Shown one piece after another: positions 1,833 through 34,595 of a stretch of 34,639 nucleotides of DNA; positions within the stretch are counted from its first letter, which is position 1, and each line of letters begins with the position of its first letter. A program made the translations under genes and the position numbers. Under the pieces are notes generated by a model. The model worked only from the letters and a program-made list of their open reading frames with translations. It made no database searches and was not told the DNA's origin. Location of the stretch: positions 1 to 34,639 of the IMG/VR virus record IMGVR_UViG_3300015262_000023. One strand, written 5' to 3'. Source of the DNA: a virus.

Positions 1833-2033
1833 TCAAACCTTTGCATCTCGTGCAATCGCCGACTTCCATACTAGCCCCCCGACATCGCTAGGCGGGAAGT
1901 CAGCTTGCACTACATCCGGGTTTGCAAAAAAAACGGACGCAAAGCCCGTCGGCGGGAGGGGGATAAGTGCTTTTTCAGCAGTTTTTTTCACGGTGGCGGG
2001 ATTTTCCCAGGACGGGCTGTGATCCTCGCCCAT
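1833..2033 (-). CDS. Small ORF of uncertain reality (66 aa, Ash-like character)
   Basis: This is an open frame with an ATG at 2033 (MGEDHSPSWENPATVKK) and a stop at 1833. Its composition, with a central GFASVFFANPDV segment, resembles small 'Ash-like' peptides often annotated beside phage regulatory regions, but I cannot identify it firmly. No clear ribosome binding site is visible, and the frame overlaps a terminator-like hairpin at about 1925-1951. It lies upstream of, and divergent from, the LexA-boxed cassette. It may equally be non-coding. Confidence 0.25.
   Translation of the reverse strand: MGEDHSPSWENPATVKKTAEKALIPLPPTGFASVFFANPDVVQADFPPSDVGGLVWKSAIARDAKV
1925..1951 (-). terminator. 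Terminator-like hairpin with T-run (minus)
   Basis: On the minus strand ACGGGC and GTCCGT can pair around a short loop, followed directly by eight T residues. This would stop leftward transcription arriving from the LexA-boxed region before it enters the 944-1567 gene. The stem is short and contains a bulge, so the call is tentative. Confidence 0.35.
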
Positions 2034-2100
2034 GCGATCAACCTAGCGCCGATAGCCGTCAGTCGCTCTCTTGATGTGTGGTAACAAACCGCTCGATATA

Positions 2101-2116
2101 CTGTTTACATATACAG
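2101..2116 (+). promoter_or_regulatory. LexA (SOS) box
   Basis: The 16-mer ctgtttacatatacag matches the CTGT-N8-ACAG consensus of gammaproteobacterial LexA boxes, with an AT-rich centre. It lies 25 bases before the ATG at 2141, where it would cover the promoter. This makes the 2141-2697 cassette DNA-damage inducible. The match is seen directly; that LexA regulates it is inference. Confidence 0.8.
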
Positions 2117-2140
2117 TATTCGAAAAGGTGGGTATGGCCG

Positions 2141-2392
2141 ATGAATAGGGAATCTGTGGGAACCGTAATCCCGGAGTCATCTGAAGTTGTGCGGTGGCGA
2201 GTCATGCTGCGCGATGAGGCCGCATTGCTCGCAATGCCCGGTGCCCATCACAAAGCATTGCTTAGGCAAGCCCATACTCTGCACCAGGACCGCCTAATCA
2301 ATGCTGATCACCTCAGCGATATGCTTGAGCTGGCGGACGCGGCGCTGGCCTTTGCTGTCGAGTCGCTTCTTGATCTCGACGGTGACGAGTAG
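2141..2392 (+). CDS. SOS-controlled small acidic protein, unknown function (83 aa)
   Basis: The start ATG at 2141 (MNRESVGTV) is preferred because the earlier GTG-started frame runs through the LexA box. AAAAGGTGGG lies upstream. The product is short, helical and acidic at its C-terminus (SLLDLDGDE), with no membrane segment or enzyme motif that I recognise. It is the first gene after the LexA box, and the next ORF starts 8 bases downstream, so the two form an operon. Because the prophage repressor seems to lack a self-cleavage domain, an SOS-made small protein could act as an antirepressor. DNA-damage cargo unrelated to induction is the alternative. Confidence 0.65.
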   Translation: MNRESVGTVIPESSEVVRWRVMLRDEAALLAMPGAHHKALLRQAHTLHQDRLINADHLSDMLELADAALAFAVESLLDLDGDE

Positions 2393-2400
2393 GAGACCCA

Positions 2401-2697
2401 ATGTACGTATTGGTCACACCTATGCGCTTACGTGGCGTCGCATTAGATCCCAAGGAGCGGCGCCGCTATCCGGCAATCAGGGGCAATGTCATGGTCAACT
2501 CTACTGAATGCCATGAATTAGGCCGAGCAGCTAACGTTGCTCGCGTAAAGATAGGAATGCCGCTCGATCCGGATCCATTGCCGCCATTGCTTGATGCAAC
2601 GCTGGCAGGGATGGCCGTGACGGGTTTTGTGTTGAGCGGCATCGAGTACATCGATGGCTGCGCCTACGCGCAGTCTTGGTGGTGCCGGCAGGGATAG
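2401..2697 (+). CDS. Second gene of the SOS cassette, unknown function (98 aa)
   Basis: It begins at ATG 2401 behind GTAGGAGA, a good ribosome binding site, 8 bases after the previous stop. The protein starts MYVLVTPMRLRG and contains a Pro/Leu-rich turn (LDPDPLPPLLDATLAG) and a hydrophobic C-terminal half ending in CAYAQSWWCRQG. I recognise no domain. It is co-transcribed with the LexA-controlled gene upstream, and a 9-bp hairpin follows the stop. The function is unknown; co-expression suggests it works with the 83-aa protein. Confidence 0.65.
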   Translation: MYVLVTPMRLRGVALDPKERRRYPAIRGNVMVNSTECHELGRAANVARVKIGMPLDPDPLPPLLDATLAGMAVTGFVLSGIEYIDGCAYAQSWWCRQG

Positions 2698-2703
2698 AAG
2701 GAT

Positions 2704-2724
2704 GCAGGGGCCAATGGCCCCTGC
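2704..2724 (+). terminator. Hairpin after the SOS cassette
   Basis: A 9-bp perfect stem (gcaggggcc / ggcccctgc) with a 3-base loop lies 7 bases after the stop at 2697. There is no T-run, so it may be a weak terminator or an mRNA 3' end stabiliser. Confidence 0.5.
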
Positions 2725-3138
2725 TAGTGACGCGTTATATTTCCCGAGCGAGAACGAACAGGCGCACAGTCCAATAAGCTGCTTGGAGCGCTCGAATCAT
2801 TTCTTCAGGTAGATAACGATTTATAAGTATCTTCATATAAAGATGCTCAGAGAGTTGGCGGGAACCGCTACCTGCAAAGGTGCGGAGTGTCCTACCCGTT
2901 TAGCAACTCAACCCGCCGACACAGAAACTTATCCACGCAACTCGTTAAATAATGATTATTTCCAAATTAGGAAAAAGTCACAACTAAACTCATTTGACAA
3001 GTATTCTTGCTTGACTGGTCTGTCACAGAGCCATACTCTTCGAAATTCCGGTATCAAAGAAGCAAAGCCTCGGGTAGTTGGGAAGGATGCTAACACAGCT
3101 TTTCTGACGTGGAACAGCCAATGCGGCACATCCGAGGA

Positions 3139-3176
3139 ACACAATAAAGCCCGGCTCCGCCCGGGCTTTGTTGTGT
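3139..3176 (-). terminator. Strong terminator of the late tail operon
   Basis: AAAGCCCGG and CCGGGCTTT arms pair around a short loop, and the flanking AACACAATA / TTGTTGTGT extends the pairing. This is the classic Pseudomonas/phage intrinsic terminator form and can work in both directions. It lies about 270 bases beyond the last tail gene (stop 3445) and would separate the late operon from the left cargo genes. Confidence 0.75.
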
Positions 3177-3253
3177 CTGGCGCCCGGGCGAGAGCGCCGA
3201 TTTGACACCGCTGCCTGAAACACAAGGGTTTGGTTGAGGCGTTGATCAAATTT

Positions 3254-3273
3254 GTTTACCGATATCGGTAAAC
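3254..3273. promoter_or_regulatory. Perfect 20-bp palindrome, probable operator
   Basis: gtttaccgatatcggtaaac is a perfect 10+10 palindrome. A matching half-site (gtaaac) follows at about 3289. Its length and symmetry fit a dimeric repressor of the GntR, LacI or TetR type, but no such regulator is encoded in the window. It lies between the last tail gene and the terminator. Confidence 0.5.
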
Positions 3274-3444
3274 TTTCGTCAACACAAGTAAACACTATGT
3301 CACGAAAACTTTCCGACAGACGGTCGGCGACAACTAATTGTATCAAACAGGGCGCCCCCACCCATCTTCCACACTTAACTGTGGAACCATGTACGAATAC
3401 CGCATAACCATTTATGCCAGCACACTCTCAATAGTAAAACACGC

Positions 3445-4416
3445 CTACTGCGTAACGCGCTTTAATACCCCGGCGTGGGATGCAGCCAATGCACTGTTCG
3501 TGGAAAAAGCAGCCGCGTTGGAAGGTGCCGGACTCGGCCCGTGAACGTGTGCAGCAATCTGAGCATTCATCTGTTCCAGCAGGTCGAGCACATCGCAGAC
3601 AACCTGGAACAAGTTCACGCTTTCCGAGCCAATCCAATTCTTCGGCGCTTCCAGGCGTTGTCCCTGGCTGGCCACACTTTGACGAACACCCTCGATCCGC
3701 TCCTGCATATCACCGCCCACCGTGGCGTTGTGCTTCTGCCCCACTACCAGGTTCAGATCCCGACCGGTTGCCTGGTGCAGATCATCCACCGCCGCCAGGC
3801 TCGCCGACCCGCCCGACAGCAGCTTGAGCGCGCCCAGCGCCTCGATCTTTTTCACACCACCCACAGTCTCGGTCGAGTGGTTGTCGACGGCTCGCGTATG
3901 GCTCTGGAACTGCTCGCGGTTGTCCAGGGCTTCAACCTCGCGCTCGATCGCTTGATCCCGGATCTTGCCATCGGTCTGGCGTAACCAGTTGCCGTCCGCG
4001 TCGACGCGCTGCTGGGCGGTGCCGCTGTGCTGCCACACCTGGTCGCCTTTGGGCACCTTCGGCATGCTCAGCCCGTGAGGCAAGATCGATTGGATATAGG
4101 GCTTGTTCGGTAGGCCGTAGGCGAAGCACACCACAACCCGCGTCCCTTCCTCTGGAAAGGCGTAAATGCCCATTTCCTCGCCGCCGGTGGGCAGTGGCAG
4201 CGGCACGCCGGTCAACGGCGGCATGGCCGGATCTGGCGCGTCGTCAGGGCCGAGAACAACAATGTCCACCGCGTAGCGCGGACGGAAGTCGTCGCAAAGT
4301 CCGGCGTCCGCCGGCGCATCGGCCACGGCTGTGACCTGGGCGAATCGTGGCAGGTGATAACCGCCGGTGAGTTCGGGAAATTGGCGCTCTACAGCGCGGC
4401 GGATTGCGTCTTCCAT
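3445..4416 (-). CDS. Baseplate spike protein V-like (323 aa)
   Basis: This is a baseplate assembly/spike protein of the gpV/Gp45 type, the central membrane-piercing spike under the tail tube. Residues about 1-110 form the OB-fold-like N-terminal part, with FPEEGTRVVVCFAYG typical of gp5/VgrG-type proteins. A long repeat-like beta region follows (GNWLRQTDG, ATGRDLNLVVGQKHNATVGG), then a C-terminal HVHGPSPAPSN segment. It is the last gene of the late operon and overlaps the hub gene by 28 bases. The position after a hub protein supports the assignment. Confidence 0.75.
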   Translation of the reverse strand: MEDAIRRAVERQFPELTGGYHLPRFAQVTAVADAPADAGLCDDFRPRYAVDIVVLGPDDAPDPAMPPLTGVPLPLPTGGEEMGIYAFPEEGTRVVVCFAYGLPNKPYIQSILPHGLSMPKVPKGDQVWQHSGTAQQRVDADGNWLRQTDGKIRDQAIEREVEALDNREQFQSHTRAVDNHSTETVGGVKKIEALGALKLLSGGSASLAAVDDLHQATGRDLNLVVGQKHNATVGGDMQERIEGVRQSVASQGQRLEAPKNWIGSESVNLFQVVCDVLDLLEQMNAQIAAHVHGPSPAPSNAAAFSTNSALAASHAGVLKRVTQ

Positions 4417-5093
4417 CGGATAGCCATCTGGTCATTGGCGAGCGCCACACTGGTGACGCGCTCGCCGGCGTTGATCGTTGCACCTGGTCGTAGCCCCGGA
4501 AGGGCCGCGACCATTGCGCTCTGGTTGCCCTGGTAGCCGTCGAAAAGCTCCGTGGGGATCTGCAGCGGCGCCCGGGCGCCAAAAAAACTGTCGGCCCAAC
4601 TGCCGGCAAACACTTCGCCGTTGCCCAGCTGGTGCCAGGTGAAGTCCGGAATGCTGAACACGCGGGCCAGACTGTCCATCGCCTGGTAGCCGGCGGCGAG
4701 GCTGTAGAAATACGGTGCTTTCATGCCGGCATAGGGTTGATCCGGAACACGAAAACGCAGGCCGGTCTGCTCACTGATAGCGGCCAGCACGGCGCGCAGG
4801 TCAACGTGACGCAGATTCAGCGGCAAGGGGTTGGCCAGCACAGCGGCCAGCTCGCGGCAGAACAGCACCTGCTCCACCGCGTTGGCGGCAGTGCAGCGCT
4901 CGACGTAGCCGATGAAATGGCGCTGCAGCGTCCGATCGTTATAGCCGATATCCAGCGTGACCAAGCCCTTCAGCGGCTCGGCAGACTGAACGGTGAAGTT
5001 CGCCCGCCCTGGACTGGTGGCGTCCAGCCGGACGTCTTCCTTGACCAGGGGAACAGACGCGCCATTGATCGACAGAACCTTGTGCAGCTTCAC
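4389..5093 (-). CDS. Baseplate hub protein, gpD/Gp44-like (234 aa)
   Basis: The start GTG at 5093 overlaps the upstream stop (GTGA), showing translational coupling. The sequence (GRANFTVQSAEPLKGLVTLDIGY, then ISEQTGLRFRV) resembles the beta-rich hub and late-control D-type proteins that join the tail tube to the spike. It is shorter than P2 gpD (about 390 aa), in keeping with the HP1-like split of the hub and spike between adjacent genes. It acts in the virion baseplate. Confidence 0.65.
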   Translation of the reverse strand: MKLHKVLSINGASVPLVKEDVRLDATSPGRANFTVQSAEPLKGLVTLDIGYNDRTLQRHFIGYVERCTAANAVEQVLFCRELAAVLANPLPLNLRHVDLRAVLAAISEQTGLRFRVPDQPYAGMKAPYFYSLAAGYQAMDSLARVFSIPDFTWHQLGNGEVFAGSWADSFFGARAPLQIPTELFDGYQGNQSAMVAALPGLRPGATINAGERVTSVALANDQMAIRWKTQSAAL

Positions 5094-24211: not shown

Positions 24212-24397
24212 TCAGCTGTTGGCTGACTCTTCAGGATTGATGGCAAGAATTTCAGATAGCCGACGAAGCTGACCTTGCTCCTTTTCACTCAATGACCGGT
24301 ATAGGCCAATGAGGCGGCGTTCCGCTTTGCTCAAGTTGTGCCATTCGAACTCGGCAAATCCCAAGCAAAGAGGTTCTTTTTTGATGCGATCCAACAT
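24212..24397 (-). CDS. Small protein downstream of the repressor (61 aa)
   Basis: The product starts MLDRIKKEPLCLGFAEFEW and is helical and charged (SKAERRLIGLYRSLSEKEQ). I recognise no named family. It lies 102 bases downstream of the repressor on the same strand, and is thus probably expressed in the lysogen. Possible roles are a repressor partner or superinfection immunity, from position alone. Confidence 0.55.
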   Translation of the reverse strand: MLDRIKKEPLCLGFAEFEWHNLSKAERRLIGLYRSLSEKEQGQLRRLSEILAINPEESANS

Positions 24398-24499: not shown

Positions 24500-24850
24500 T
24501 TAATTCTTCTGACGGGCAGCGTCGTCCGCCATCGCTTTCAGAAATCGGCGGATTGCTTCTTGATCACCTGGCGTGATGGTTCTGTATTGCGTCACAAGCA
24601 GATTCTCAACTTCGGAAAGCGAAGCTTCCGTAGCTGTCGTGTGCTGACCGCTCAGGATGTAATGCACGTCAAAACCTGGCTCGCGCATAACCTTACTCAG
24701 ATACCACGCCGGGGCATCGCTGCTGCCTGCTTCGTAGTTAGCTTGGGTGCGTTTCGAAATACCAAGAACCTCGGCAACCTGATCCTGAGTCAGCCCGCTT
24801 TTCTTTCTCTCTTCCCGCAATCGCGAGCCGATGCTTTCAGAATCGTGCAA
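24500..24850 (-). CDS. CI-type prophage repressor, HTH_3 (116 aa)
   Basis: This is an XRE-family DNA-binding protein. The helix-turn-helix is at about residues 8-45 (LREERKKSGLTQDQVAEVLG, then SKRTQANYEAG). The C-terminal half (SEVENLLVTQYRTITPGDQ) is a short helical dimerisation part. No Ala-Gly/Ser-Lys S24 autocleavage domain is present. The start is TTG at 24850 with GGGAATGA upstream. It maintains lysogeny by blocking the divergent early promoter. Its lack of self-cleavage means that induction must come through another factor. Confidence 0.85.
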   Translation of the reverse strand: MHDSESIGSRLREERKKSGLTQDQVAEVLGISKRTQANYEAGSSDAPAWYLSKVMREPGFDVHYILSGQHTTATEASLSEVENLLVTQYRTITPGDQEAIRRFLKAMADDAARQKN

Positions 24851-31610: not shown

Positions 31611-33914
31611 ATGGAAATTGAAAGCCAAAGTACATTTGAACGTTGCCTGCGCGAAGGTATAAACGTTTTTACAGGCGCGGGATTTTCCTTATTATCGGAA
31701 GACAAAAGCGGACGCACCTTACCCATTGGCGACGAATTAAGAAAGGAACTATTAACTGAATTCCCTACCGCACCTAAAGCACTTCAACTGCCTCAACTGT
31801 GCACTTTTCTACTGAGATCAAAAAAAGAAGAACTGGAAAAGTATATCAGAGCTCGATTTGATATTGGAGAGCATAGCGAAAAGTACAAAAACCTTGAGCA
31901 TATAAATTTAAAATTTGTATTCACCACAAACGTAGACAACTTGCTTGAGTCTGTCTTCAATGGAAGCCCAAACAAATATCTGAATGATGCTCGACTCAAC
32001 GGGGTCAGCCTCCAAGATAAGGCGGCTGTAGACTATATCCATTTGCACGGATGCGTATCTAACGAGGAGTCACCTTTGATATTTGGTGATTTGGATATCG
32101 CAAGCGCCTTTGCCAATGATCCAAATCGCTGGAATTATTTTAGAAACCTTATGAACAGACACCCCACTTTATTTTGGGGCTATGCATTGAGGGATGCGGG
32201 AACTCTGCAAGTCTTCGCTGATTCGCTTGAAGACAGCAACAAGAAAAACGCGTGGATAATTGTACACCCCGAGTACACCACGGAAGATGAGATCCAGTAC
32301 TACAAGTCTTTAGATCTAAAAATAATTACTGCAGATACGGAAAGCTTCCTCGATTATCTCAGCAAATTTAAAGACACAAACAACTCTACCAAGACCGAGT
32401 ACGAAAATCCATTTCCAGAGTACTCCATCCCAAGCAACGCGGAAGTAAAACACCGAGCCACCCAAGACTTTTACCAAGGTGCCACACCGAACTGGAGTGA
32501 TATCTACTCTCCGCGAGTAATAAAACTCCGTCATTATTCCGTTATTGAAGAACACACAAATCGGGGGAGAAACGTTTTAATCACTGGTGGGCCCGCCACA
32601 GGAAAAACTACTCTCCTCATGCAATTCGCAGCTTTTCACAACTTTAACGGCATTAAAATCCTACTTTCCAATATCTCTTTGCCAAAAGCCAGGACAATTT
32701 CCGCAAAGATCGCCGACACCCCCACACTTTTATTCGTGGACAACCTACAAAGCTCAATTGATGCGCTAAACTTCCTTTCAACAAGAAAGAACATACAATT
32801 AATTATTGCGGAAAGGGATTACGCCTACCTCTCAGCATCAAGCTCAAACTTCCTGAGAAAAAACATTGAAATAATAGACATAACATCTCTAGACGAAAAA
32901 GATGCGCAGGCTGTAATCTCAAAAATCCCTGAAGATATAAAATCACGAAGAAAATACGTACTTCGCGATGGGGACTCTTTATTTGAACTCATTGAGCGAA
33001 ACTGCCGCACCCCGTCGATTAGGGAAAGATTCAACAATGTAATCGATGAGCTGAGGAAAAAGGATGACAGTCTGGTTCAATTGTTTTTGTTAGCGTGCTA
33101 CCTGCATACCTGCCGAAGCGTAACATCCATGGACGTTCTCTATAGCTTCTTTGACAAAGGCTATAACGATCATCGACAGCTTTATGAGCTTTTAGGAATA
33201 CTGAGCAGCAGTATATCTGAGTATGCGGGAGAGTTCGCCGAAAACGATCAAGATTACTTCGTAATTCGATCAAACTTATTGGCAGACCACATTTCCACAA
33301 TCGCTCCTGCGAAAGACTTGGCGAAGATGTTAAAAGCATTCCACAACAATGTCCCTCGCTTTTGCGTACCTAACTTTGATTCATTCAAACGCCGCGCCTA
33401 TGATGCTCGCCTTTATGAAAGAGCATTCCCAAACATCGAAGATGGCGAGGAAATTTATGATGTCATTTATCGAAAACACGAATCCCCATTCAACCTGCAG
33501 CAAAAATCGTTATATTTGAGTCGACGCGGAGAGCACCAACGAGCTTTCAGTGTTATAGACGAAGCAATATCAAAAGGAGGAAGTCGAAATTGGTCGATAA
33601 AAAATTCTTATGCGATCATAAAATTTAAAGCCAATATAGGGCGGGAAGACAGCGCAGACGTCAGAAAGGCACTGAACGAAAGCATGGAAGCATTAGAACA
33701 ATGCCACTCAGCTGACGTAAGGAAAGTTTTTCACGCCATGTCTTATACAGATCACTCACTACAGTATTGGAAGCGGTACAGAGATGAAATTTCCATCTCC
33801 TATCTCGAAAAATCCAAATCATGGCTGAGTGAAGAAGCAGATGCGGACAATCGAATCGGAAATGTATCAAGGCTTTTGAAACAGGTTAACATCGCACTAT
33901 CCACTGCCAGATAG
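31611..33914 (+). CDS. SIR2-STAND-like antiphage effector (767 aa)
   Basis: This is a probable NAD+-consuming abortive-infection protein. The N-terminal SIR2 domain (about 15-250) has GAGFS at 22-26, TTNVD at 105-109 with Asn107, HLHG with His146, and WGYALRD near 189-195. These align with the active-site Asn and His of SIR2 effectors such as ThsA and DSR2. A P-loop NTPase follows with GGPATGKTT at 326-334 and LLFVDN (Asp377) as Walker B, then a winged-helix-like segment near 480-520 and a long helical C-terminus that may sense the invader. The architecture is like SIR2-STAND (Avs5-type) proteins. The gene is AT-rich (about 42% GC in one line counted by hand) against its neighbours, so was acquired separately. 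A GGGG-type site precedes the ATG. Confidence 0.85.
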   Translation: MEIESQSTFERCLREGINVFTGAGFSLLSEDKSGRTLPIGDELRKELLTEFPTAPKALQLPQLCTFLLRSKKEELEKYIRARFDIGEHSEKYKNLEHINLKFVFTTNVDNLLESVFNGSPNKYLNDARLNGVSLQDKAAVDYIHLHGCVSNEESPLIFGDLDIASAFANDPNRWNYFRNLMNRHPTLFWGYALRDAGTLQVFADSLEDSNKKNAWIIVHPEYTTEDEIQYYKSLDLKIITADTESFLDYLSKFKDTNNSTKTEYENPFPEYSIPSNAEVKHRATQDFYQGATPNWSDIYSPRVIKLRHYSVIEEHTNRGRNVLITGGPATGKTTLLMQFAAFHNFNGIKILLSNISLPKARTISAKIADTPTLLFVDNLQSSIDALNFLSTRKNIQLIIAERDYAYLSASSSNFLRKNIEIIDITSLDEKDAQAVISKIPEDIKSRRKYVLRDGDSLFELIERNCRTPSIRERFNNVIDELRKKDDSLVQLFLLACYLHTCRSVTSMDVLYSFFDKGYNDHRQLYELLGILSSSISEYAGEFAENDQDYFVIRSNLLADHISTIAPAKDLAKMLKAFHNNVPRFCVPNFDSFKRRAYDARLYERAFPNIEDGEEIYDVIYRKHESPFNLQQKSLYLSRRGEHQRAFSVIDEAISKGGSRNWSIKNSYAIIKFKANIGREDSADVRKALNESMEALEQCHSADVRKVFHAMSYTDHSLQYWKRYRDEISISYLEKSKSWLSEEADADNRIGNVSRLLKQVNIALSTAR

Positions 33915-34572: not shown

Positions 34573-34595
34573 TGGCGGTGAAGGAGAGATTCGAA
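34573..34595 (-). other. attR: 3' end of the rebuilt tRNA-Ser
   Basis: These 23 bases are identical to attL (87-109). They form the T-arm, acceptor 3' strand and encoded CCA of the tRNA, and identity ends at the next base to the right, where tRNA sequence continues. Confidence 0.9.

Follow-up and report, generated by a model that had tools for sequence, protein, structure and literature searches.

The two small genes at the left end of this prophage, here called A and B, form a LexA-boxed operon which, as judged by sequence comparison, has a conserved operator, has spread over phages and plasmids independently of the resident repressor and co-occurs in its relatives with SRAP and UmuD'-like proteins. 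The simplest reading is that A and B are part of a pool of LexA-run SOS accessory genes exchanged among mobile elements. We regard the pair as a Pseudomonas-specific, LexA-controlled SOS accessory module that would probably act on host repair or SOS machinery, a reading that we hold at even confidence and no higher, because the molecular step is drawn from the neighbouring genes. A and B are thus probably a shared DNA-damage-response module, not the private trigger of this prophage. What is new here is the pair of protein families, neither of known function; the kind of setting is a known one.

The window, i.e. the whole stretch of 34,639 nucleotides that was analysed, is an IMG/VR virus record and represents a P2-like prophage that sits in tRNA-Ser of a Pseudomonas. 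Its left boundary is given by the attL core (87-109), 23 bp that are part of tRNA-Ser and identical to the attR core (34573-34595) within the tRNA-Ser gene at the right window edge. The tRNA-Ser identity was read by eye from the sequence, and ARAGORN found no complete tRNA in the window. The left end carries a 232-aa minus-strand protein, the LexA-boxed operon, and then the tail and capsid genes from D onward. In P2-like relatives, the A/B site always has gene D (3445-4416, minus strand), which we take to be D from the P2 gene order, on its right. Beyond the tail and capsid genes lie an Ogr/Delta-type activator, the repressor with a CII-like gene, the genes for a replication protein and the integrase, and one for a SIR2/STAND ATPase. 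The last of these (31611-33914) lies between the integrase and attR and encodes a 767-aa SIR2_2 and nSTAND NTPase protein that is likely, from Pfam and weak PADLOC matches, to be an anti-phage defence gene. The 232-aa protein (944-1642), which lies between attL and the operon, belongs to phrog_33426, a family of unknown function, and has relatives in the equivalent place in two other loci (L083 and L134).

The initial annotation had described a canonical LexA box ahead of two small genes, and this description holds, as the box is of the textbook kind and the only LexA-like site in the window. The sequence CTGTTTACATATACAG at 2101-2116, which ends 24 bp upstream of gene A, is the sole perfect CTGT-N8-ACAG in the window, and the palindrome extends into the flanks (ATACTGT-N8-ACAGTAT), so that the full operator on the plus strand is ATACTGTTTACATATACAGTAT at 2098-2119. 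A matrix derived from the relatives' boxes gives it a score of 37.8 (training median 34), and the next best site in the whole window reaches only -0.3, with none near the repressor. The core alone is weak evidence, since 0.34 perfect cores are expected by chance in the window and 25 of 100 shuffles hold one. These shuffles are what speaks for a chance or vestigial box ahead of junk ORFs; however, the box and both proteins are conserved over scores of distinct loci, which refutes that reading and leaves it a vanishingly small probability. After removal of duplicates, 193 distinct A/B loci remained, and 158 of them had a perfect box no more than 200 bp upstream, compared to 96 of 4,680 random windows (2%) drawn from the same sequences. 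Broken down by class, the box precedes 88/111 P2-like loci, 38/42 loci on lambdoid phages, plasmids and an inovirus, and 32/40 other genomic loci. These counts indicate that the box upstream of A/B is under selection and give comparative backing to LexA control of the pair, as proposed earlier. A sigma-70 promoter scan of positions 1950-2850 found none.

Genes A (2141-2392, 83 aa) and B (2401-2697, 98 aa) lie on the plus strand with a spacing of 8 bp, and both reading frames are conserved in relatives. Downstream of B, a GC-rich hairpin, GCAGGGGCC-AAT-GGCCCCTGC (about 2704-2724, plus strand; -20.0 kcal/mol, no T-run), possibly marks the end of the operon, the refined interval of which is about 2098-2724; the hairpin was not among the predictions of a terminator scan. 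Neither protein had a Pfam or NCBIfam match, a profile search against PDB sequences gave no match, and the PHROGs families to which they belong (phrog_6137 for A, phrog_5560 for B) are both of unknown function. Structure prediction yielded a small helical bundle for A (pLDDT 82) and an all-beta PH-like barrel for B (pLDDT 94), which also carries a conserved C-terminal QSWWC motif. Structure searches with B returned weak PH/RanBD/EVH1-like matches (best Foldseek E 0.22), and the best match of a second look (Z 5.9, rmsd 2.9, 75 aligned residues) was below significance, on a list from which the absence of a family carries no evidential weight. With A, the matches were generic helical ones such as ribosomal S20, none of them significant. 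As neither protein has a significant structural match, the structures name no function. A literature search, largely outside subscription journals, found no paper on the A/B pair. An A-like domain also forms the N-terminus of longer proteins of 172-262 aa (L462, L465, L466 and L468; phrog_19595 and phrog_8717), some of which end in a CxxC zinc-like motif, and three of these four have a perfect LexA core nearby.

Homologues gathered from genome, virus, phage and plasmid collections place A and B on P2-like prophages, lambdoid phages, an inovirus and conjugative plasmids, the latter in P. cerasi and P. syringae. An A-like gene stands beside B in 109/115 P2-like loci, in 31/42 loci of the lambdoid, plasmid and inovirus class and in 21/40 other genomic loci; A precedes B on P2-like prophages, and elsewhere B mostly precedes A. 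Because the upstream box is conserved and an A-like gene accompanies B, we consider the two to be one LexA-run unit. B is present in 70 of 299 Pseudomonas genomes, in up to three copies per genome, and in a whole-class sample of 369 genomes it occurred only in the Pseudomonas genome used as centre.

The company that the pair keeps outside P2-like prophages suggests a link to DNA repair or the SOS response. On plasmids and many lambdoid phages the operon reads LexA box, B, a UmuD'-like S24 protein and an A-like gene, and it is divergent from a gene for SRAP (YedK/HMCES family). The S24 protein aligns to E. coli UmuD' (1umu) and has its start beyond the cleavage site, and can therefore be described as a pre-cut UmuD'-like protein; PHROGs also classes it as UmuD-like, and its match to the HumD model falls below the cut-off. 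Of the 82 non-P2 loci, 28 have SRAP no further than 2 kb from B, namely 19/42 of the lambdoid, plasmid and inovirus class and 9/40 of the others, compared to 0/115 P2-like loci. The SRAP association could be positional, since lysis genes are also among the neighbours of A/B on lambdoid phages. A repair or SOS gene within the operon itself, the UmuD'-like one, is a feature of plasmid and lambdoid relatives and not of the window, and as neither SRAP nor a UmuD gene stands beside A/B in the window or its P2-like relatives, the link to repair is one of guilt by association, drawn from other elements.

Both partners have precedents on mobile elements. Phage P1 HumD and the umu-like SOS operons of plasmids are likewise SOS genes of mobile elements, and the pre-cut UmuD'-like protein between B and A resembles HumD, a UmuD'/SOS modulator cited in PMC4713147; PsiB and umu-like genes are also carried by mobile elements (PMC11541004). 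In contrast to these operons, the version in the window consists of A and B only, with no UmuD' or UmuC. SRAP is known as a neighbour of umuDC and other mutagenic polymerases (PMC3765255), and the passages on these neighbourhoods make no mention of A/B. The likeness to such neighbourhoods lies in the many relatives in which SRAP is divergent from the LexA-B operon, while P2-like prophages differ in having no SRAP near A/B. One P2-like prophage that shares the window's repressor type and has no A/B (L448) carries, in the corresponding region beyond D, a LexA box between divergent SRAP and umuD-umuC genes (1978-4473), and here the SRAP-umuDC set stands in place of A/B. In two loci, the UmuD'-like genes (L213, 6290-6640; L152, 4290-4640) have a TTG start that overlaps the end of B and have no cleavage-site segment. 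The pre-cut UmuD'-like genes on lambdoid phages and conjugative plasmids have no adjacent umuC.

We infer from these neighbourhoods that A and B act on host repair or SOS machinery. RecA would trigger cleavage of LexA and A and B would then be made, to act on some host target that all carrier elements have in common. This target would most likely lie in the SOS and repair machinery, be it the RecA filament, Pol V/UmuD'C or SRAP-linked repair, and the action would help the element's DNA to survive or replicate while the cell is damaged. More tentatively, and with distinctly less confidence, we suggest that A and B could be a new SOS effector pair specific to Pseudomonas mobile elements, common to phages, inoviruses and conjugative plasmids, that reprograms the host SOS response and is interchangeable with the SRAP-umuDC cassette at the same prophage site. 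Such reprogramming might consist, for example, in passing either RecA filaments or host UmuC on to a mobile UmuD'.

The initial annotation had instead proposed that A and B may be an antirepressor pair for the prophage's own repressor. By analogy with Tum and the Gifsy antirepressors, A and/or B, freed by LexA cleavage, would bind the non-cleavable repressor, thereby inducing the prophage; of the two, A is the likelier candidate, being helical and the faster to evolve. Several observations speak for this reading. As the initial annotation states, the 116-aa repressor (24500-24850, minus strand) has no S24 domain; it matches HTH_3 and HTH_31. The operon lies outside the immunity region, and the window holds no other LexA site. 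An S24 gene is missing from 35 of the 38 long P2-like contigs with A/B, as that proposal would predict. The arrangement also resembles p95-tum-orf97 of phage 186, likewise a P2-family phage, in which small genes away from the immunity region directly follow a LexA box, and the dinI-antirepressor-irsA operon of Gifsy prophages (GfoA, GftA), a LexA-run operon of small proteins in prophages with non-cleavable repressors (PMC3121763). As anticipated, however, A and B are not recognisable as Tum: comparison with the Tum sequence of U32222 gave only short, insignificant BLAST pairs, and no DinI domain was found by Pfam in A or B, whereas Tum has a DinI-like C-terminal part. Membership of the Tum/DinI family was rejected on this absence of sequence similarity. 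Nor does the operon have the DinI homologue of its Gifsy counterpart, from which the pair also differs by its occurrence together with S24 repressors. In contrast to the phage 186 operon, A and B are not tied to one repressor and are present on plasmids. Adjoining the repressor, a 61-aa ORF (24212-24397, minus strand; phrog_23693, function unknown) is a possible further regulator of the immunity region.

The antirepressor proposal for the window's repressor was not supported by comparison across prophages. A clear homologue of that repressor is present in 30 of the 38 P2-like contigs, mostly at 38-72% identity, and in the others immunity has been replaced, by an unrelated 138-aa HTH repressor (L316), by a small HTH protein beside the integrase together with a different replication gene (L315, L317-L319 and L322), or, in 2/38, by a repressor-like S24 protein of 239 aa, close to a serine recombinase (L320 and L321). 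In the prophages with replaced immunity, identity to the window's proteins is still 76-94% for B and 59-76% for A. Accordingly, no single cognate non-cleavable repressor accompanies A/B, which persist as prophages exchange their immunity modules, of which there are at least four unrelated ones, one of them S24. In a tree of A and B, the window falls in a well-supported set of 10 rows (95/97), the smallest such set, which spans all four kinds of immunity, and eight changes of kind are required overall. Distance correlations over 26 prophages were 0.62 between A and B and 0.15-0.17 between A/B and the repressor, compared to 0.13 for the control gene D, suggesting that A and B covary with each other and not with the repressor beyond the level of the control. 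Conversely, 13 of 24 long contigs with the window's repressor family lack B; ten of these 13 keep D plus 2.4-6.7 kb beyond it, and seven of the ten have no perfect LexA core there. Among 30 B-bearing records of the lambdoid, inovirus and phage groups, 26 have S24 proteins, and for 25 of these the reading frame spans 239 aa or more, the size of a repressor. The plasmid copies count against antirepression in that no prophage repressor needs removal on a plasmid. Gifsy antirepressors, which are also small and LexA-run, act across heteroimmune repressors (PMC3121763), and for this reason antirepression, though disfavoured, keeps a low probability; as a Tum-like partner of the window's repressor, the pair is unlikely. 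A stronger contender, which we nevertheless consider rather improbable, is an SOS-induced function in host takeover or protection that is unrelated to repair and would benefit any mobile element whose host cell is damaged, such as arrest of cell division or replication, inhibition of host defence or exclusion of other phages. The broad spread over unrelated elements is consistent with this, as are the position of the P2-like operon in a variable cargo region adjoining genes with weak defence-like matches and the finding that orf97 of phage 186, the second gene of a LexA operon, blocks 186 infection when expressed (U32222). The recurrent partners of A/B are, however, SRAP and UmuD'-like proteins and not defence or division genes.

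A two-gene LexA-controlled unit that unrelated elements of one genus retain, whether they live as phages or as plasmids and even when the repressor is replaced, points towards a requirement shared by mobile DNA whose host is damaged. Two unannotated protein families, one of which (B) occurs in about a quarter of the sampled Pseudomonas genomes, hereby gain a regulatory context and testable partners. The case also calls for caution in annotation, as a LexA box by small prophage genes together with a non-cleavable repressor does not alone make a Tum system. In P2-like loci, highly variable cargo flanks the conserved A/B pair on both sides up to D (e.g. L125, 8091-9458; L040, 3236-4723), and some of these cargo genes have weak PADLOC matches (Cas13-ApeA-like, E1-E2). 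The inovirus PfAC02b (L151, 3772-4090) carries a LexA-like box and a version of B that is diverged or shortened, next to a Gabija pair and the inovirus repressor.
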